The notes beneath the pieces were generated by a model. That model was not told where the DNA came from and did not search any database. It saw only the letters and a list, made by a program, of their open reading frames with translations. A DNA stretch of 64,000 bases from Isoperla grammatica (lineage: Eukaryota; Arthropoda; Insecta; Plecoptera; Perlodidae). The position numbers and the translations under genes were made by a program. This document shows, piece by piece, positions 8,280 through 64,000 of the stretch; the stretch's first letter is position 1; each line of letters opens with the position of its first letter. The stretch spans positions 76,326,165 through 76,390,164 of the forward strand of contig OX246737.1 in NCBI GenBank assembly GCA_945910005.1. Direction: 5' to 3'.

Positions 8280-9200
8280 GAATCTTGCAATCGAATATAT
8301 ATCGAATATCAATTAATTAATTATGATGGTTTAATTGATTATTTAGTAAATATGACAATTGATTCATGTATTGCCATTAAGAATACGTCTGTGTGAAAAC
8401 TTTCAGCTCAATTCGACGTTCAAAAGTGGGTGTTTTATCGATTCCCATATAAAACATCAATTAATTACTAATGATGGCTTAAATGATTATTTAGTAAATA
8501 TGACAATTGATTCATGTATTGTCATTAAGAATACGTCTGTGTGAAAACTTTCAACTCGATTCGACGTTGGGAAGTGGGTGAAACATCGATTCCCATATAA
8601 AACATCAATTAATTATGATGAATTAATTGACTATTTTTAGTAAATATGACAATTGATTCGTGTATTGTCATTAAGAATACGTCTGTGTGAAAAATTTCAG
8701 CTCAATTCGACGTTCGGAAGTGGGTTAAACATCGATTCCCATATAAAACATTAATTAATTATGATGAATTAATTGAATATTTAGTAAATATGACAATTGA
8801 TTCGTGTATTGTCATTAAGAATACGTCTGTGTGAAAACGTTTAGCTCAATTCGACGTTCGGAAGTGGGTGAAATATCGATTCCCATATAAAACATCAATT
8901 AATTAATTATGATGAATCAATTAATTATTTAGTAAATATGACAATTGATTCGTGTATTGTTATTAAGAATACGTCTGTGTAAAAACTTTCAACTCGATTT
9001 GACGTTGGGAAGTGGGTTAAACATTGATTTCCATATAAAACATTAATTAATTATGATGAATTAATTGACAATTTAGTAAATATGACAGTTGATTCATACA
9101 TTGTCATCAGGAATACGTCTGTGTAAAAAATTTCAGCTTGATCGGACATCTAAAAGTAGGTGGAATATCGATTCAAAGATTCCGTCCAGACAAACAAGGC
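8280..9200 (+). repeat. Satellite of about six 146-bp units
   Basis: The marker GAATACGTCTGTGTGAAA recurs at 8381, 8529, 8675, 8819, 8967 and, diverged, 9111, giving periods of 148, 146, 144, 148 and 144. Each unit also holds TAAATATGACAATTGATTC, a CAATTCGACGTTC-type core and ATCGATTCCCATATAAAAC. The last unit leads into TTCCGTCCAGACAAACAAGG and an AAT tract, which looks like a LINE 3' end. The array may therefore derive from a retrotransposon tail, but that is inference. Confidence 0.9.
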
Positions 9201-37430: not shown

Positions 37431-37710
37431 TTAAGGTAACTTCATCCCTTTCGGGCATTCTTCAGGGGTTTGACTGTTACATCTATATGACATTTGTTGT
37501 GACAGGTCATCAGCATTAGTAGGTAAGATTAGGCTATACACAGCTCGCCGATCAAAGGTATTTGCGGTCAACGGGTCGAGGGAAGGAATGTCGGAGGGTT
37601 TGGCCAAACGATCCAACTTTCAGACCTCGAAAATATCTGTGTGTCCAACTGGGAGTTGTATCTACTATAAGCTGTTGGATCCTTTCCTCACATTATATAC
37701 CATTCCAGCC
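37431..37710 (-). mobile_element. Penelope-type terminal fragment (candidate)
   Basis: At 37661-37695 the sequence ATAAGCTGTTGGATCCTTT followed by CCTCACATTATATAC matches the block at 54345-54375, which lies behind a hammerhead-like fold. The 61-aa minus-strand frame at 37431-37616 is not assigned. The classification rests only on the shared terminal block. Confidence 0.4.
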
Positions 37711-40002: not shown

Positions 40003-40112
40003 GGATTGGATAGATAGGGACACAACAGCTTACCTGAAGTAGTAATTGTTGAAGTTCGAACAACAACCAAAACAGGTAAGCTGTTGGGTCCCTATTTTAT
40101 CCAATCCTATGC
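40003..40112. repeat. Hairpin of Penelope-type ends
   Basis: GGATTGGATAGATAGGGAC plus CAACAGCTTACCTG on the left is mirrored by CAGGTAAGCTGTTGGGTCCC and TATCCAATCC on the right. This is the AGGTAAGCTGTTGG block of the putative Penelope-type terminal repeats in head-to-head orientation, without the hammerhead-like part. It lies about 130 bp from NF-YB exon 2. Confidence 0.65.
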
Positions 40113-40240
40113 AACTAATTAGTAACTTCTTTGTGTGACCTGGGTCTGGATTCACAAGAGGTCCAAGGTAAGGCTGGTCTTAAAGTTAAGACCAGAATCG
40201 TAATGTAAATGTAATCGTAATGTAATCGGGAATAACTAAC

Positions 40241-40593
40241 CTCTCGGTATTTTTGTAGGTACAGTTTTAAAGGTTCAACATAGTTATCAAAGCCAAGTGT
40301 TGTCATGGCAAATAAGATATCTTCTCCATTAATAGTTTTTCTTTTTTCCATGTGACATCGGTCACTGGCTTCACTTGTAATGAAGCTTATGAACTCCGAA
40401 ACACATTCTTGCACACATTCGCGTGCATCCTTGGCTATTTTCCCCGGTTCTGGAATACCTCGTTTCATGATTTTGGCTATGTTAGCAATGGGTAAGAAGC
40501 GATCTTGTTCTCGTAGAGGATATCCTGGTTTTTGATCACCTCCTTGGTTTGAATCATCGGTGTTCTCGGCAGTTAGTGCAGCGTCTGCATCAT
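40241..40593 (-). CDS. NFYB: NF-YB coding exon 2 (histone-fold domain)
   Basis: This 353-nt exon encodes the H2B-like histone fold of NF-YB, the subunit that pairs with NF-YC and, with NF-YA, binds CCAAT boxes in the nucleus. Visible blocks are [76 protein letters not shown] and [11 protein letters not shown]. All invariant parts of the family are present. A TTTACCAG acceptor starts it with AT, completing the G of exon 1 to Asp; it ends with GAG before a GTTAGT donor. The larger open frame (40115-40654) extends into introns on both sides. The upstream ATG there is not the start, because exon 1 with a family-like N-terminus lies at 58900-58990. Confidence 0.96.
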
Positions 40594-41184
40594 CTGGTAA
40601 ACACATCAAGTACTGGTACAGTATACATATTGAAAGACAGTCTGCCATGGTCACATACTACGTTTACATGCAGGTTTGAAATCGATTTCAGAACATTTTG
40701 AGTTTTCAAAACTGCATACAAACACTTCCAAAAGTGGATTTGGATTGGTTCGAGTCAACCCTTTTTGCTTGTAGGGTTGACTTGAAAACTAGTTTTGGAA
40801 ACTGCCATGTGAACACCATACTGCCGCCAATACGTTTCGACTGTGCGGGCTAATTAGCAAACTAAACTGGCGGCGGCGGTGCAAATTGAGGTTATGTTCA
40901 CAATCTTTTTTTTTACCGCTCTCGTTCTCTCGTTCTTGCCTATAGTTCTTTTCAGTCTGAGAAGTGAGTGGAAAAATGTCTTTTTCCAACGTTACTAAAT
41001 TTTGTTAATCCCTATAGCGATGTCCTGACGGGCACAACCTGTCACCGAGGATTTATCGACTAATAGATCTGCAGTTATTTGTAAGCCAGCCGTAAAGACA
41101 GGTAGTGCAGGGTCCACCTGTCATGTGATGATAATGGTAAGAGGTAAATTCCACATAACTGCTATTACTGCAAATTTGTATTAA

Positions 41185-43049: not shown

Positions 43050-44381
43050 AATATTGAATCTGGAGTTTGTTTGGGAAAGAGTGATAGGGACCGACAGCTT
43101 ACCTGTAGAAGTTCGGGTAGTTGTCCGAAGATTGAAGAATGAAGAGACACGAAAATATTTATAAACAAAACGACGAAACGTTTCGGCTTAGGCAGCTTTG
43201 TTCACTCGTCGGAGTGGAGAAACCAACAGATAAAAACTAACGGACTTTACAAATTCAAATTAAACATAAAGCACTGTTAGTGGTAGAGAAGTGAACTCGG
43301 TGGGGACAGAACGGTAAGGTAGTTCACTGTGTTACCCCTAGGTTAACGTACGTTAAGGTTGGGAGGAACACAGGAATTAGTAACCATTTGATGGGCAAGT
43401 TCTTACTTCCTCAATTCACTTTCATTGCAATTGGGCAGGGCTCTAATAACAGAGGTGTTGAAACACTCAATGAAGCCTAGGTTGTGTGTGACTGTATGTA
43501 GAGATGTAGAGCTTCTGGTTTGTCATTGAGCCTCACGGTAGCATGCCTATGCCCATTCATCCTTTGCCTTAAGTTGATAGTCGTGAGGACTATAAGGGAG
43601 GCTTATGGCACGGATGGGACCCTCGGAGCAGGGATCCATTCCTTTGCATCCTTTGTGGCTCATGTCGCAGATGTTGGGGGATACTGATGAATACTCTGGG
43701 TATATCGGTAGCCAAATGCTGCGTGGTGATGGAGGATGCAAGGAGGTGTCTCCCCTGTTTGAGGATGCCATTTAATCAATGTGGGCCTGGGTGCCATTGT
43801 GTCACTAAAGGTATAATGTCCCCTTGAGTGGGTCTGGTAGGTTGGTTAGTGGTCGGACGGTACACTTGCCTCTGGACAAATTCTTGGGAGTAGCCTCTGT
43901 TTACGAAGGCGTTAGTTACGCACTGGTAGTACATAATGGGAGAGATCCTCTTCCTCGGAGCAGATTCGTCTGCCTAGTGTGGCCGGCGAGTGGGGCAGTC
44001 ACTGCTTGGTATAAGTAGGGTGGCAACTGTTGTAGTGCCGATGTTGCATGCTGTTGGTAGGCTTGAAATGTATCTTGGTTTGTAGCTGTCTTTCTTTGAT
44101 GGTGATGTTTAAATCTAAAAAGGTGACGTGTGTGCGGGATATGTCCAAAGTAAATTTAACAGGGTACATTGAGTTTAATTCTTCGAGGTATTGTATGAGG
44201 CTTTCCTCTCCATGGGTCCAAAGTATGTAAATATCATCAATGAATCTGAGCCAACACAATGGTTCAAGAAGTTGTCTGGACTGGAAGTCAGTATCTAGTT
44301 TGCCCGTGAAAAGGTTGGCAAAGGAAGGGGCTATACAGGTATCCATGGCTGTGCCCTTGATTTGGATGTAATGTCTGTCCA
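43050..44381 (-). pseudogene. Penelope-like element: RT catalytic half and 3' region
   Basis: On the minus strand the frame reads YIQIKGTAMDTCIAPSFAN, then WLRFIDDIYILWTHGEESL (catalytic IDD motif) and PVKFTLDISRTHVTFLDL. This is the pattern of Penelope-like reverse transcriptases (KGTAMGT..AP..AN, R(Y/F)IDD, FLD). After a frameshift near 44010, RRICSEEEDLSHYV continues the domain. The Gly usual after TAM is Asp here. No GIY-YIG endonuclease is recognised. The 5' part of the same RT lies at 47518-47785 beyond a hAT insertion. The element ends at about 43050 in a GGTAAGCTGTCGG block next to gypsy remnants. Confidence 0.85.
43171..43211 (-). ncRNA. Hammerhead-like fold, copy A
   Basis: Read on the minus strand: stem I CGACGA pairs with UCGUCG; the core-like GUGAACAA replaces CUGANGA; stem II is A-AGC/U-loop-AGCC; then GAA, a tiny stem III ACGU, and U as the base before stem I. 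The order matches a type I hammerhead with the short stem III known for Penelope-like elements. Position 3 is G and position 8 is C instead of C and G, and one extra A precedes stem II. Catalysis is untested and uncertain. Confidence 0.5.
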
Positions 44382-44472
44382 CATAGGCGTGCGCAGGGGG
44401 GGGCAAGGGGGGGCCACTGCCCCCCCATTAGGATAGGTTTTAAAAAAAAAATAGAATTTGGGTCAGGGTATA

Positions 44473-53778: not shown

Positions 53779-54241
53779 TCCGAGAGTGACTACGAGAACG
53801 CTATCGGTGTCCGGGATACTTAGTTATCGTGTCTCATAGTGTGTTGGTCATTTTAATCCTCACTGTTTCGTGTGTGTCATGATTGTGGGTCACCCGTAAT
53901 TAAAATCATAAAGTCATGCAGAGGTGTAGGCCTATCCATGAGAGTGTCAACCGTGTGTCAAGAAGGACACAAGCTAAAGTGGGACTCACAACCGAAACAC
54001 AACAAGTGCTCGGTCGGTTATACGAAATGATTTCATCTGCGTTGTTATGTGGAATGTATTTTCAAGTATAGCGTATTTTCGAAAACACTGCAGCTCCAAT
54101 TATTTGCTTCTAGAAAATCATTCTATAATATGGTTAACAATTACATTTAACTATCAGTTTCGTAAGCTTGTGTTTCACTATATTATGACAAGCTAATTTT
54201 CAAGCTTTCCGGTGTTCAGAAAAAGCAGTAGCCATTCTTCT

Positions 54242-54275
54242 CTCGAGTGAGCAAGACCTCGGTCGAAACGTCTCG
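54242..54275 (+). ncRNA. Hammerhead-like fold, copy B
   Basis: CGA pairs with UCG (stem I, 3 bp); core GUGAGCAA; stem II GACC-UC-GGUC; GAA; stem III ACGU; C; then UCG. It is followed about 65 nt later by AGGTAAGCTGTTGGATCC (54342-54359), the terminal block seen with the other copies. No RT is attached here. Confidence 0.45.
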
Positions 54276-54874
54276 TTATATTTTGTATTATGTCTTTTAT
54301 GTGTACTTCAAACTCGCAAATCCGTCATCTTACTACACGAAGGTAAGCTGTTGGATCCTTTCCTCACTTTATATACTAATAGTCTTTACAGTTCACTGTA
54401 TAATAATAAAATGATTAGGTAAAAGGTAAAAGACGAACTGGAAAGAGCAAACTAACTGGTTTAGATTCAATTCAACAATAACAACACTTTGCAAGGTACA
54501 CTACAACGTGCATAAGTTTTAACACTTTGGGTGCTGGACGTTGTAGGCACGTCCTCCCCTAGTGGCGGGGGTTTTTTGCCACTTTTCTCGATATTGTACC
54601 GAAGGAAGTAGGAAGTATGGAAGGTGTGTATGTGGGAGCTATACCTAAAAAAAGCTTGAATCTTGATCTTCAAAACGATTTTTTTTTAAATTATTTTCAT
54701 ATGAATAAGTAGGCCTAATAATTTTGTAAAAAAGTGACAATTTTGGAGTTTAGAAAAATAAAAACTAATAATTTAGGCCTAGGCCTACCTATTTTTTAAT
54801 TTTTTTTATTGACTTATTTTGAAGCTAGAACATTTTCACTCTGTACTGATAATAATAATAACAATTTAAATAGG

Positions 54875-54875
<1 letters not shown>

Positions 54876-54910
<35 letters not shown>

Positions 54911-54940
54911 ATACTACTACTAATACTACTAATCGTAGCA
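54876..54940. repeat. (CTA)n microsatellite at LINE 5' junction
   Basis: About 20 CTA/ACT triplets with two AAT-type interruptions lie directly before the first LINE codons. A second ACT tract of six or seven units (about 57540-57560) lies at the LINE 3' end, preceded by a GAA run. Confidence 0.95.
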
Positions 54941-57504
54941 CTGTTGACCAACTGGCAAGACTGTCGCAGGATGTAAAGGACGCTTTCCAAAGAAGGGAAT
55001 CAACGCTGGCTGTTATGGTGGATTTCAAAACAGCATACGACACCATATGGAGACCCAAGTTGCTGACAAAACTAAGTAGGTTAAAAGTATCTGGAAATCT
55101 ACTTGGGTGGATCAAAAGTTTTTTGGACCAACGTTTCATAAGAGTCTCTTTCCAAGATTCTAAATCGGGTTATCAGCAACTCAAGCAAGGCCTACCACAA
55201 GGATCGGTTCTAGGCCCAATGCTTTTCAATGTCATGATAAATGATCTTGCTACGGAACTCAAAGACAATTCTGGGGCCTCATTCCAGTACATTTGCAAAC
55301 TTAACCCCGGTGTTAGCCAATAGCCAATCAGGAGTCAGCAATTGGGACGCCGATCGAAGGAAGGCATTGTTGAAAAAACGAGACAAAATAAAAACAATAA
55401 CAAACAAAAACAGTCCAATAACCTCAAAACGTCGACAAAATACTCAATAAAACTACATATTTACATATGTAGGACCTATATATAATGTACAATAAATACA
55501 CAAAATTGTTTATAAACTTCAATAAACACATAAAGTAACGTATCCATGAAATAGGATATTCTCAATAAAGAATTGAAATGTGACATTTGTGAAACTATAC
55601 ACACGGGCATTGACAAAATGGCGGCATTTCAAAGTATTGTTGAGATAACTCTTCTTAACCCTACTATCAGACAGGGTCATATTTGCCTCCGAATTATGCA
55701 GGGAAGCCTTGGTAGGAGTTAACCCCGGGGTCATTTTAACATGGGGTTAGCGAGAGTTAAGGAGAGTTAAAAAAATGTACAGGAATGAGGCCCCTGGTAT
55801 ACAGGTGCTACTATATGCAGACGACGTAGTAATGTGGAATTCGTCCAATGACATTGAGAGTCTCCAAAGACAAATGAACGAAGCTCTTGTCGTTTTGGCA
55901 CAATGGTTGACAACAATGCGATGACTGTAAATACAACAAAAACAACATACCAGCTCTTCTCACTATCTCACGAGAAGACTGTAACACAAACCCCATTGTA
56001 TCTTAAGTATAAAACCCAGGAGCTCAAACAAAGCTACAATTCCAAATATCTGGGCTTAGCTATGGACCAGAAACTTAGCTGGAAAGAACACGCAATGGAA
56101 ACGGCTAGGAAAGGAACTAAAAGAATGAACCTTTTGAAAAGACTAACTGGCTCAAAGTGGGGAGCGTCTCACAACACTTTGGTCACAACATATAAGACTT
56201 ATGTTAGACCAGCATTGGAGTATAGTGATGAGGTTTTTGTTACAGCCACAAAAAATGTTACTGACAAAATTGACAAAGTCTTACAGAACCAGGCCATGAG
56301 ACTTATATGTGGTGCTCCCAAATCTACACCTATAGGCCTAGCCGCAATGGAGCTCCAAACTGGTTTAGAACCACTGAAGGCACGCAGAGAAAAAAGTGCA
56401 ATGAAGCTCCCCGAGAGGTTGGTAAGGGGAAAGGATGACTACTGGAGGGACTATGGAAATGGGTTTGAGAGACTAAAGACACACAAGAACTTCTCACAGA
56501 CTGCAGTCATGTTAAAACAGAAATACCAAATTCCAGACTGCCCACGTACACGCCTTAGCCAAAGAAACGGGAACAACAATGTAAGACCCCCACTGGATGT
56601 TATGCTAGAACTTGACGAAAAAGTGCAGAAAGCAGCATGTTCAGCCCAAGAGTTAAGACAGATAACATACCGTAATCTACACTCCCGGTACCCAGTGCCA
56701 ACCTGGCTGCACGTGTATACGGATGGATCTGCCACACCACCTAAGGGGCTTGCGGGAGCAGGAGTGTATTGTCAGGTTTTTGAAAAACACACTGCGGCTG
56801 GCAAATTTGGAACAAACTTTGACGGGGAAATGGCAGCCATCCACCTTGCACTAACCGAAGTAGGCAATATTAAGCCATCACAGCCAGTGGTGATCTTGGT
56901 AGATTCAAGGGCAGCACTACAAGCCTTGATATCTCAAAGAGATACAGATTGTGAGATAACAATAGCATGTAGGGAAGAGTACTACAAGCTCTACGACAAA
57001 GGCTGGCAAGTATGTCTTCAATGGATCCCTAGTCATTGCTCAATAGTGGGAAATGAAAAAGCCGACTACCTGGTAAAGATGGGAGCTAAATTGAAACAAC
57101 CTGAAAAGGCAATCTCACTGCAGTCCATCAAGTCTACAATCAATAACCAAGTCAGCTTAGAGTTGAAGAAACAGTATGAAGTAATTGCGCGAGGGAAAAG
57201 ATGGAAACCGCTAATAAGGAAGGAGAAAATGAACGCAAGGAAAATTGATAAGGAAGAAAGAAGGGTATACGTGGCAAATTTCCGGATGGACACCGGCCAC
57301 AACTACCTGCAAGCCCATCTGCACAAAATAGGAGTGGTGGACACGAGAACATGCCCACTCTGCAAAGAACAAGACCAGGACGCGGAACATCTTGCGACAT
57401 GTGTCTCTTTGACAGCAGAAAGGGATCTAATGGAGGGGCAAAAGATAGCAAGGAGGAAATATGTGGCAAACCTTTATTGGGCAACTAGGCAGAGAATGGC
57501 ATAA
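54940..57504 (+). pseudogene. LINE with reverse transcriptase and RNase H (I-group-like)
   Basis: A 5'-truncated LINE ORF2. RT motifs: VMVDFKTAYDTIWRPK (motif A, about 55012), GLPQGSVLGPMLFNVMIND (motif B, about 55193) and VLLYADDVVMW (catalytic, about 55807), then the thumb in the open frame from 55903. RNase H follows at about residues 270-390 of that 533-aa frame: YTDGSATPPKG, GEMAAIHLALTE, VDSRAALQAL and WIPSHCSIVGNEKAD, so all four acidic catalytic residues are present. A zinc-knuckle-like CPLC..H..C is near residue 483. RNase H places it near the I/LOA/Nimb LINEs. Defects: a Harbinger-type MITE between motifs B and C, and a one-base frameshift near 55918. No endonuclease remains. Confidence 0.92.
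55274..55793. mobile_element. PIF/Harbinger-type MITE, 520 bp
   Basis: The ends GGGCCTCATTCC and GGAATGAGGCCC are flanked by CTG on both sides (55271-55273, 55794-55796). Removing the element and one CTG restores the LINE reading DNSGIQVLLYADD in frame, which fixes both borders. A 3-bp CWG-type target and GGGCC ends are typical of the group. It contains AACCCCGG/TTAACCCCGG repeats and no transposase. Confidence 0.9.
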
Positions 57505-61374: not shown

Positions 61375-63165
61375 TCAATCTTATAATATACATACTTAAT
61401 AATACATAAACTTAATATACATATTATGAGCAGATTAAATAGAGACATCGGAGATACATATTATAAATCGATGAATGTGATTAAATCACATTGTGTTGGG
61501 CCGAAAGGAATTCGTGGAGAGAATAGAAGGACTTAGAGATAAGAAAAGATTTCAGATTGGCTTTAAATGAGGGAATGGACGGAGAGGTGATTATTTTTCT
61601 GGGAAGCTTGTTGAAAACGGTAAGAGTAGTGTGGGCCTCTGGAAAATACTTACTTATAATTAAAAAGACAAATGGAATGTGAGTTGTGGCAGATTTAAAA
61701 AAAAGATTATGTAATACACACCTTAATTATTAAAAAATAAAAGTAAACAAATTAAATTTGAAACCATTTATGATGTAAATATCATAACAATACCTTCACA
61801 AAGAAACAGTGCGTTAAGTATTAATTTAGCATTTGGAAGCTATTAAATTACATTGCACACAAACAACAGACAAAATAAAGTTCTAAAGACGTATCATAAA
61901 GCACAATAAATTTCTATTTGTAATACTTATAATTAAAATGGCAAATGGAATGTGTGACACAATGAATAGATTGTAAAAAATAGATTATGTAAAACACATC
62001 TTTAATCATAAAAAATAGCCACCAGGTTATCTAATCAATGGTTCACACATATTGCATGCATATTAATATGACTATTATTAAGAATACTGTGAGGCGGTTG
62101 ACAGTTTTACCAGCCCAAAAACCGCCAGTACAAGTAGGAATAGAGCCAAGAGCGGAATGATAATTTTACCCGCCAATAGTTTGAGTCGAGTAGCACAATC
62201 GGCGGTAAACCGCCCAATCTGGCAACCCTGGTCACACACACAAAAAATGGTTTTATTCGATAATCGACTCAATAGTTGGTCGATCGATAATTTCTTTGAT
62301 AGCCACCGATTGGGCTAATTATCATTTCGCCTACTTGTACTGGCGGTTTTTGGGCTGGTAAAACTGTCAACCGCCTCACAGTATTCTTAATAATAGTCAT
62401 ATTAATATGCATGCAATATGTGTGAATCATTGATTAGATAACCTGGTGGCTATTTAATTAATGTACATACCTATGATTAAAGATGTGTATTACATAATCT
62501 ATTTTTTACAATCTATTCATTGTGTCACACATTCCATTTGCCATTTTAATTATAAGTTTTATGAATAGAAATTTATTGTGCCTTATGATACGTCTTTAGA
62601 ACTTTATTTTGTCTGTTGTTTGTGTGCAATGTAATTTAATTTAATAGCTTCCAAATGCTAAATTCATACTTAACGCACTGTTTCTTTGTGCCTATGGCAG
62701 TGGCGTAACTAAGGGGGGGGGGGGGGGTTAGGGGGTTTTAACCCCCCCCGAAACTACATCGAGAATGACTTTACTTAATACTTCATTTACTTTTACTTAC
62801 TATAAGATCCCTAAACCGTTTCAGTGTATAACAATCGCAATTCGCAACAAATAATATTTTCATTATATTTATCATACCACTTCACTTAGATAAGATGTAT
62901 AATTTCTTTCAATAATTCAATTATATTTATGTGTTCATCTACAACTAATATACCTTTCGCTCGAACCAGTAAAAGTAAGGGTGCCTATAAATAAAAACGC
63001 ATAAATCTAATATTACAAAATGACGCTCTGTGAATTCAAATTTAAATGTATGTGACTTGTGACCACAATGTTTCACTTCATCTTGAGATTATATTGAACA
63101 ACCATAAAACATTAAAAACACAATTTCTATGCAATTCTTATTTAGAAAAATAATTAATACCTACT

Positions 63166-63554
63166 TGTGCAAGTAGGGTATAAGAATAGAGGGAACCCAA
63201 CAGCTTACCTGGTTGGTGACTGCAGGGGTCTCGTAGATAAAAGAGTACATATAAAAGAATTTAGACATACAACGTCGAAACTGTTTCGGCCAAACAGGGT
63301 ACATATAAAAGAATTTAGACATACAACGTCGAAACTGTTCACTGTTCACTCGACAAGTGCAGAGGGATGACTCGTCGAGTGAACAAGGCCCTGTTTGGCC
63401 GAAACAGTTTCGACGTTTTATGTCTAAATTCTTTTATATGTACACTTTTATCTACGAGACCCCTGCAGTCACCAACCAGGTAAGCTGATGGGTTCCCTCT
63501 CTTCTTACCCTACTTGCACATATCTAGCCGTTTGGCCCCTCCTACCGCACAATA
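63166..63554. mobile_element. Inverted Penelope-type terminal repeat, solo insertion
   Basis: Flanked by a 10-bp duplication AATACCTACT (63156-63165, 63555-63564); the uninterrupted site is seen in the sister MITE near 6510. It is a head-to-head inverted structure: GTGCAAGTAGGGTATAAGA, CAACAGCTTACCTGGTTGG and ACATATAAAAGAATTTAGAC on the left are mirrored on the right. ACATATAAAAGAATTTAGAC is also tandemly duplicated in the left arm (63249, 63300). The right arm contains hammerhead-like copy C and an AGGTAAGCTGATGGG block. Inverted terminal repeats without an RT are known for Penelope-like elements. Confidence 0.8.
63373..63415 (+). ncRNA. Hammerhead-like fold, copy C (best preserved)
   Basis: CGUCGA pairs with UCGACG (6 bp, stem I); core GUGAACAA; stem II GGCC-CUGUUU-GGCC; GAA; stem III AC-A-GU; U; then stem I. 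It keeps GAA at 12-14 and the A-U at the base of stem III. The 3/8 core positions are G and C. Downstream AGGTAAGCTGATGGG begins at about 63476. Confidence 0.5.
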
Positions 63555-64000
63555 AATACCTACTGTAACACTGTAACTTCAATATAATACAAACAAACAA
63601 GAAGTGGTTCGAGTAGTATGATTTGATTCTAAAAGGCACGAAATAGTAATTATAGAAGTGAAAAAAATTTCGCCTTCGGCGAAATGGCCTCCGGCGGCTG
63701 GGGCTTTGCCCCAGACCCCTTTCGGTCCCCTCATCTCACTTTTCCCACATTAACCCCCCCCCGAAATAATTCCTAGTTACGCCAGTGGCCTATGGTATTG
63801 TAATGATATTTACGTGATAAATGGTTTCAAATTTAATTTGTTTACTTTTATTTTATAATAATTAAGGTGTATATAACATAATCTTTTTCTTTAAATCTGC
63901 CACAACTCACATTCCATTTGTCTTTTTAATTAAAGTAAGTATAATAATTGGTCATTTCTTGTGCTATAAAGATACGTCTTCACAACTTTATTTTTTCATG

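Follow-up and report, generated by a model that had tools for sequence, protein, structure and literature searches.

Penelope-like elements of Isoperla grammatica carry minimal hammerhead motifs with a flipped 3-8 core pair

Introduction

Textbooks treat the hammerhead core as an example of strict conservation. Within it C3 and G8 form a Watson-Crick pair (PMC2837043, PMC9217987), and residue 8 is described as acting through its 2'-OH, the proposed general acid (PMC6155905, PMC9217987), so that the acting group would be kept by any base at that position. Among the 198 sequences of one natural family, C3 was reported as changed in four and G8 in two (PMC2837043). The window analyzed here, a stretch of 64,000 nucleotides of Isoperla grammatica (contig OX246737.1, positions 76,326,165 to 76,390,164), contains three copies (A, B and C) of a motif which an original prediction, made from the letters alone, had read as hammerheads with C3 and G8 exchanged for G3 and C8. 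To our knowledge a flipped 3-8 pair has so far been a laboratory mutant. We found no natural G3-C8 hammerhead in the literature that we searched, the most relevant papers on hammerheads of Penelope-like elements (PLEs) lying outside that search, and an earlier report of natural G3-C8 cores is possible. The locus raises the questions of whether these motifs are hammerheads, what carries them, and whether the exchanged bases belong to a ribozyme lineage that kept its core pair.

Results

Fold and core of copy C

Copy C (63373-63415, plus strand) fits a type I hammerhead in which the core pair 3-8 is flipped to G3-C8. It is composed of a 6-bp stem I (CGTCGA/TCGACG; 63373-63378 and 63410-63415), the core GTGAACA (63379-63385, with G3 at 63379 and C8 at 63384), an extra A (63386) before a 4-bp stem II (GGCC/GGCC around the loop ctgttt; 63387-63390 and 63397-63400), GAA (63401-63403), the segment ACAGT (63404-63408) and a U as nucleotide 17 (63409). 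Stems I and II are present around the core in type I order. Where the consensus reads CUGANGA ... GAAA ... UH, copies A, B and C read GUGANCA, and the remaining conserved positions match. These parts are as originally described; the 2-bp stem III is not, as AC and GT with a single base between them are unable to form a closed hairpin. Such a stem could form only between two motifs.

When the 64-kb window was scanned loosely for cores with any of the four Watson-Crick pairs at 3-8 (stem I at least 5, stem II at least 3), copy C was the sole match. Loose matches are near chance, since at least one match of any 3-8 core was obtained in 41/100 dinucleotide shuffles (swapped core in 7/100, canonical core in 6/100). 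When the scan was made strict and given the geometry of copy C (stem I at least 6, stem II at least 4, short stem III segment), the window gave a single match, whereas 300 dinucleotide shuffles gave none.

The Rfam scan of the window at gathering thresholds gave no match, and relaxed scans of the three copies (E <= 10) gave no hammerhead. These negatives say little about the minimal type, because a canonical minimal motif found elsewhere in the genome (family H, locus L109, see below) was likewise missed by the Rfam release 15 models (E <= 1). A PDB sequence search returned one match (E 0.83), judged irrelevant. The predicted folds of A and C include a G3-U17 pair, and B has a minimum-energy fold that is not of the hammerhead type. 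Dimers predicted by the folding programs were long duplexes, in which joined stem IIIs were not seen.

Copies A and B and their kinship with copy C

The swap had been claimed for all three copies, and GTGANCA with one extra A is indeed common to A, B and C, although the placement needed correction: A (43171-43211, core GTGAACA) lies on the minus strand, and B (plus strand, core GTGAGCA, C as nucleotide 17) runs from 54241 to 54278. Stem II of A has one broken pair (A.C at 10.1-11.1), and stem I of B consists of three contiguous pairs, like the family B copies of other genomic loci. N7 is the single core difference among the three. Twelve conserved positions (G3, U4, G5, A6, C8, A9, the extra A, G12-A14, A15.1 and U16.1) are identical in A, B and C, as are 17/62 ungapped flank columns. 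One paper, going by its title, deals with a viroid hammerhead whose core contains an additional nucleotide.

A covariance model was built from A and B only, and it retrieved copy C as its next best match (35.0 bits, E 2e-7); outside the C locus the best match in the window reached 12.6 bits. A relic hammerhead (63327-63355, minus strand; 19.3 bits, E 0.0095) is found in the inverted arm of the insertion that holds C, with stem I and GTGAACA retained and the stem II region gone. The likeness extends beyond the motifs. BLASTN matches of C with A (E 8e-5) and with B (E 0.013) start inside the motif and continue 14 and 28 nt beyond it, respectively, and the block AGGTAAGCTG lies 3' of each hammerhead at a similar distance (C, 63478-63487, plus; B, 54341-54350, plus; A, 43095-43104, minus), with the same letters in all three copies and in the inverted arm of C. 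The block resembles a 5' splice site and may be splice-donor-like.

A profile of the pseudo-LTR 3' end, built from A, B and C themselves, matched three more pieces elsewhere in the window at 10-15 bits (maximum in the reversed window, used as control, 3.6 bits). One of these is at 37668-37701 (plus; 12.9 bits), where a hammerhead was looked for and none was found; the others form an inverted pair (40042-40012, minus, 10.1 bits; 40070-40093, plus, 15.0 bits), and no hammerhead was found at 40012-40093.

Stems were compared by hand-set registers and the A/B model, as MAFFT alignments put copy C one base off near stem III. Between A and C two pairs are compensated and one is broken (P = 0.009, random placement of five changes); for B and C the numbers are two and two (P = 0.06), and for A and B three and three (P = 0.03). 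On their letters, A, B and C look like paralogues of one element family, and the swap within the window is then most simply one event and not three.

The motif lies in the pseudo-LTR of a Penelope-like element

The original prediction had missed the carrier. PLE insertions are described as having pseudo-LTRs in inverted orientation with palindromes where they join, together with a 31-bp tail and target-site duplications of 8-10 bp (PMC3846280). Copy C lies in an insertion of this type (63166-63554, plus), made up of an inverted pseudo-LTR arm (63166-63299, minus), a partial arm (63296-63358, minus), the arm with copy C (63361-63520, plus) and a tail that reaches about 34 nt past the end of the left arm (63521-63554, plus). 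It is flanked by two copies of the 10-bp target-site duplication AATACCTACT (63156-63165 and 63555-63564), so that inverted arms, a 3' tail and a short duplication are all present. Copy A is preceded on its own strand by a decayed PLE reverse transcriptase (RT) fragment (43930-44427, minus); at 142 aa, it is the only PLE piece recognized among the listed window frames of at least 110 aa.

Linkage to RT was also seen in the genome. A PLE RT match was present in nine of the 80 genomic loci, or eight places, as L106 and L107 overlap. In seven of the nine the motif is 3' of the RT on the same strand, about 0.8 kb away; the exceptions are L080, where the motif precedes the RT, and L107, where it is on the opposite strand. 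Family C motifs are RT-linked in L071 and L074. Frames were listed for two RT loci, L098 and L118. That of L098 (family B) is open from the locus edge to 1351, with the motif core starting at 1501, and by eye contains RT and a GIY-YIG-like end; L118 is similar, its open RT-EN frame running off the locus edge and ending about 150 nt before the core. Pfam RVT_1 scores were below the Pfam cut-offs in both (2.5e-5 in L098, 1.2e-5 in L118), as was GIY-YIG, detected in L118 only (0.0098). Linked PLE RT with GIY-YIG on the strand of the motif is thereby found in the genome, and in the window itself there is only the decayed RT near copy A. The target-site duplication, tail and inverted arms of C, together with the same-strand order in seven of nine RT loci, led us to the PLE reading: judged from sequence, the motif is a minimal hammerhead of Penelope-like elements, sited in the pseudo-LTR.

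The window also contains a LINE-like element (54874-57501, plus) with an RVT_1 piece and a 533-aa ORF bearing an RNase H domain, an ORF with a histone-fold CBF/NF-Y domain (40115-40654, minus; Pfam E 4.8e-26) that is probably a host gene, and tandem arrays of 61-bp and 148-bp units (764-2492 and 8312-9138, respectively).

Family C across the genome

The host genome (874 Mb, 603 contigs) gave at least 87 matches to the 181 bases around copy C, many of them being the two arms of a single insertion. Fifty loci (30 + 20) around such matches were sampled, in which the A+B model recognized 72 motifs, 55 of them distinct after overlapping loci were merged. All 55 are G3/C8, a state that the model favors, having been built from G3/C8 sequences. 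N7 is A in 52 and U, C and G in one each; nucleotide 17 is U in 53 and C in two; 49/55 contain the exact GTGAACAA; and some copies have core changes, such as A at position 12 (5/55). Covariation within family C was not above shuffles (93.8% paired against 93.5%), and its uniform core may therefore reflect recent ancestry.

Both insertion ends were recognized in 23 of the first 30 loci, some of which overlap, and 21 of these 23 have a shared flank repeat of at least 7 nt, as a raw count. By eye the flanks of the two-ended loci represent about seven distinct contexts, with most loci in one. From these flanks, many family C loci look to have been amplified as passengers of another repeat. In L047-L061 and others, an inverted pseudo-LTR pair sits inside a high-copy repeat with the shared flank AAACGTTTCAATTTGTG or close forms of it.

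Other families and the state of the 3-8 pair

Genome-wide, the G3/C8 pattern GTGANCAA-N4-30-CGAAACGTYTC had 1,876 matches and its backwards control none. These are pattern matches and not folded motifs; among the 100 matches listed, three have a long A+T-rich insert and no evident stem II. Thirty loci were taken (L095-L124) and scanned with positions 3 and 8 free and stem I of at least 3, which yielded 40 motifs with overlaps unmerged: 37 G-C, two U-A and one C-G. A scan allowing other stem III segments (stem I at least 4) gave 66 G-C and one C-G, again unmerged. We then applied a tighter free scan, in which stem II of at least 3 and GAAACGT were required, to the window and all 80 loci. This found 38 motifs at 31 distinct places (0 matches in 10 replicates of a first-order Markov background), 24 of which match the G3/C8 query and are G3/C8 by construction. 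Of the seven motifs not fixed by the query, four have G-C and belong to family E, two have U-A (family G) and the last has C-G (family H); all are Watson-Crick, and none of the 13 other 3-8 combinations was seen. The bases at 3 and 8 in sampled genomic copies are thus not unrelated, and they can form a Watson-Crick pair both here (7/7) and in family C (55/55). Two of the conditions named as refuting the original prediction, unrelated bases at 3 and 8 and a lack of stem covariation, were examined in these samples, and neither refuted it.

Eight families with differing stems (A-H) were distinguished, the 3-8 pair being G-C in six, U-A in one and C-G in one. Stem covariation, the other proposed check, does not exceed shuffles within family C and is seen between the families: 60/64 cells are paired, with 21 Watson-Crick types, and 0/20,000 shuffles did as well. 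For the core pair alone, all eight families were Watson-Crick in 355/20,000 shuffles as well. Ascertainment limits these comparisons: families A-D and F were obtained through the original finding or with queries biased toward G3/C8, and only E, G and H, from the free scan with stem I pairing required, speak freely on the core pair. G12-A13-A14 is intact in all eight representatives, a palindromic ACGU stem III segment is present in seven, and the extra A before stem II, correctly noted at the outset for A, B and C, likewise occurs in seven, the canonical family having T. C3 of a canonical hammerhead has no pairing partner in nucleotide 17, be it A, C or U. G3 is able to pair with nucleotide 17 in each of the six G3 families, this nucleotide being U in A and C and C in B, D, E and F.

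The canonical motif of family H (L109, G000:C1:4663240, minus) is a CTGATGA minimal hammerhead with T before stem II near swapped ones. Family E (L109, L110 and L111; core GTGACCA, 6-bp stem I CTTCTG/CAGAAG) occurs in both orientations at four distinct places, close to motifs of family D. Family G (L116) has a U3-A8 pair in the core TTGAAAA, a 6-bp stem II (GACGAC/GTCGTC) and U17, and occurs as two opposite copies (G000:C1:7813563, plus; C1:7812926, minus). Family D includes a head-to-tail pair of motifs at a spacing of 165 bp (G000:C1:7291376-7291569; C1:7291376 and C1:7291541), an arrangement like that of retrozymes or PLE tandems.

Searches outside the host

In viral contigs the swap pattern gave eight stretches, all with a stem II of 0, the canonical pattern 29 stretches, none with at least 3 pairs in both stems, and the 2x2 pattern no matches; alignment of PLE RT against viral contigs gave 31 pattern stretches, none confirmed. 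Prokaryote genomes gave seven matches to the 2x2 pattern, all in bacterial records, with a stem II of 0-3 bp and a stem I equal to the 3 bp of the pattern. One of them (bacterial match L038) has a canonical core with 3 + 3 bp. All seven were judged to be chance matches.

Discussion

Our best explanation is a lineage of minimal type I hammerheads of PLE pseudo-LTRs in which C3-G8 has been replaced by G3-C8. We give this whole explanation a probability of roughly 0.7, and the interpretation of the original prediction is supported overall. The structural and family part of it we hold with high confidence: the fold, the family with its genomic copies, the linkage to PLE RT and, in the sampled motifs, a Watson-Crick 3-8 pair are what the sequences show. 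That G3/C8 motifs retain some self-cleavage is putative, with odds leaning only slightly in favor.

In the proposed mechanism, PLE transcripts running through the pseudo-LTR would fold the hammerhead motif, and the loopless ACGU (or ACAGU) stem IIIs would pair two motifs, in one tandem transcript or in two transcripts; ACGU is self-complementary, so that two motifs could join. Paired motifs would cut 3' of nucleotide 17, and the cuts would bring RNA that is multimeric or read through down to unit length. The swap would preserve the 3-8 pair, leave the other conserved core bases unchanged and keep in place the 2'-OH of residue 8 and G12, the proposed general base. PLE hammerheads are described as minimal and may act as dimers (PMC7761336). 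In a PLE of the lizard Anolis, C3G or G8C alone abolished cleavage and the double mutant partly restored it, a protein being required for cleavage (PMC11167929). We consider retained cleavage, dimer action and a role of cleavage for the element to be plausible for the motifs described here. Pairing of G3 with nucleotide 17 (C or U) could extend stem I, and this is a real reason for doubt.

Since G3 can pair with nucleotide 17, the strongest rival is an inactive fold, retained for a structural role in PLE RNA (for protein binding, template positioning or as a DNA palindrome), in which the G3-17 pair lengthens stem I and hides the cleavage site. We take this possibility seriously while thinking it the less probable account. 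It gains from the pairing being possible in all six G3 families and appearing as G3-U17 in the predicted folds of A and C, and from the report that hammerhead mutants of the lizard PLE were without effect on insertion in vitro, where cleavage was dispensable (PMC11167929). However, stem lengthening as such leaves C8 unexplained, which is as constant as G3 (55/55), family G with U3 and U17 has no 3-17 pair, and G12-A13-A14 would have no evident reason to be intact in every family representative. The motifs could also be dead relics, the swap having drifted in a decayed master copy that was then amplified, with stems paired by descent. The lack of covariation beyond shuffles in family C, its many passenger copies with one flank, and a window in which the 142-aa RT fragment is the only recognized PLE piece among listed frames of at least 110 aa all fit such decay; one core shared by six families with different stems, a family placed 3' of an open RT-EN frame (two loci), stems that covary between families and window copies differing in the core at N7 alone do not, and we regard it as unlikely.

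Less likely again is that some copies are not PLEs and belong to animal retrozymes, short non-autonomous tandem elements with type I hammerheads. The spacing of the head-to-tail family D pair is consistent with repeat units of about 150-450 bp (PMC7229834), but families B and C adjoin PLE RT, the canonical type has a longer stem III, and copy C sits in PLE-type inverted arms with a tail and not in a tandem array; A, B and C in the window do not form a tandem array of such units with a canonical type I hammerhead. A fold that resembles a hammerhead by chance, in repeat DNA rich in A and T, would account for the yield of the loose rules on shuffles (41/100), but it is contradicted by the strict form (0/300) and by the 1,876 pattern matches against none in the control, and its probability is negligible. 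The PLE hammerhead lineage with a replaced core pair is the reading that we prefer.

We suggest, tentatively and at somewhat less than even odds, that working PLE hammerheads of one animal genome may have passed through C-G, G-C and U-A at 3-8, G-C being the state of well over a thousand copies. If true, this would be compensatory evolution in nature within the active site of a ribozyme, and the change would affect residue 8, the one proposed to act as general acid through its 2'-OH. A natural inverted lineage of high copy number would show that the base of residue 8 is exchangeable if the pair is kept. PLE ribozymes of this kind would escape a search made with the CUGANGA consensus, and the six families with G3 and C17 or U17 make the competition between 3-8 and 3-17 pairing directly testable.

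Among known systems, minimal PLE hammerheads are the closest. Minimal type I hammerheads of PLEs are said to have been described by Cervera and De la Pena in 2014 and by Lunse, Weinberg and Breaker in 2017. The motifs described here share with them the pseudo-LTR position, the type I order, a near-absent stem III, the GAAAC core, and tandem or inverted copies, and differ in the 3-8 pair (G-C in six of eight families, U-A in one) and in the extra nucleotide before stem II. Poseidon from Anolis (PAc) likewise has a PLE hammerhead with an RT and GIY-YIG ORF, and its engineered and partly active C3G/G8C mutant is the state seen here (PMC11167929). PAc itself is C3/G8 with an ORF reported to start inside the hammerhead (PMC11167929), whereas in our case the swap is natural and the motif of L098 follows the end of the ORF by about 150 nt. 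The natural U3-A8 hammerheads reported in 2011 (PMC3088659) also have a covarying 3-8 core pair, and family G has the same U3-A8 state; the portion of that report bearing on the pair gives U3-A8, not G3-C8. Animal non-LTR retrozymes resemble our motifs as type I hammerheads in animal repeats (PMC7229834), but they are described as canonical type I with loop-loop contacts in short tandems (PMC7229834), whereas the motifs of I. grammatica lie in PLE-type inverted pairs beside RT.
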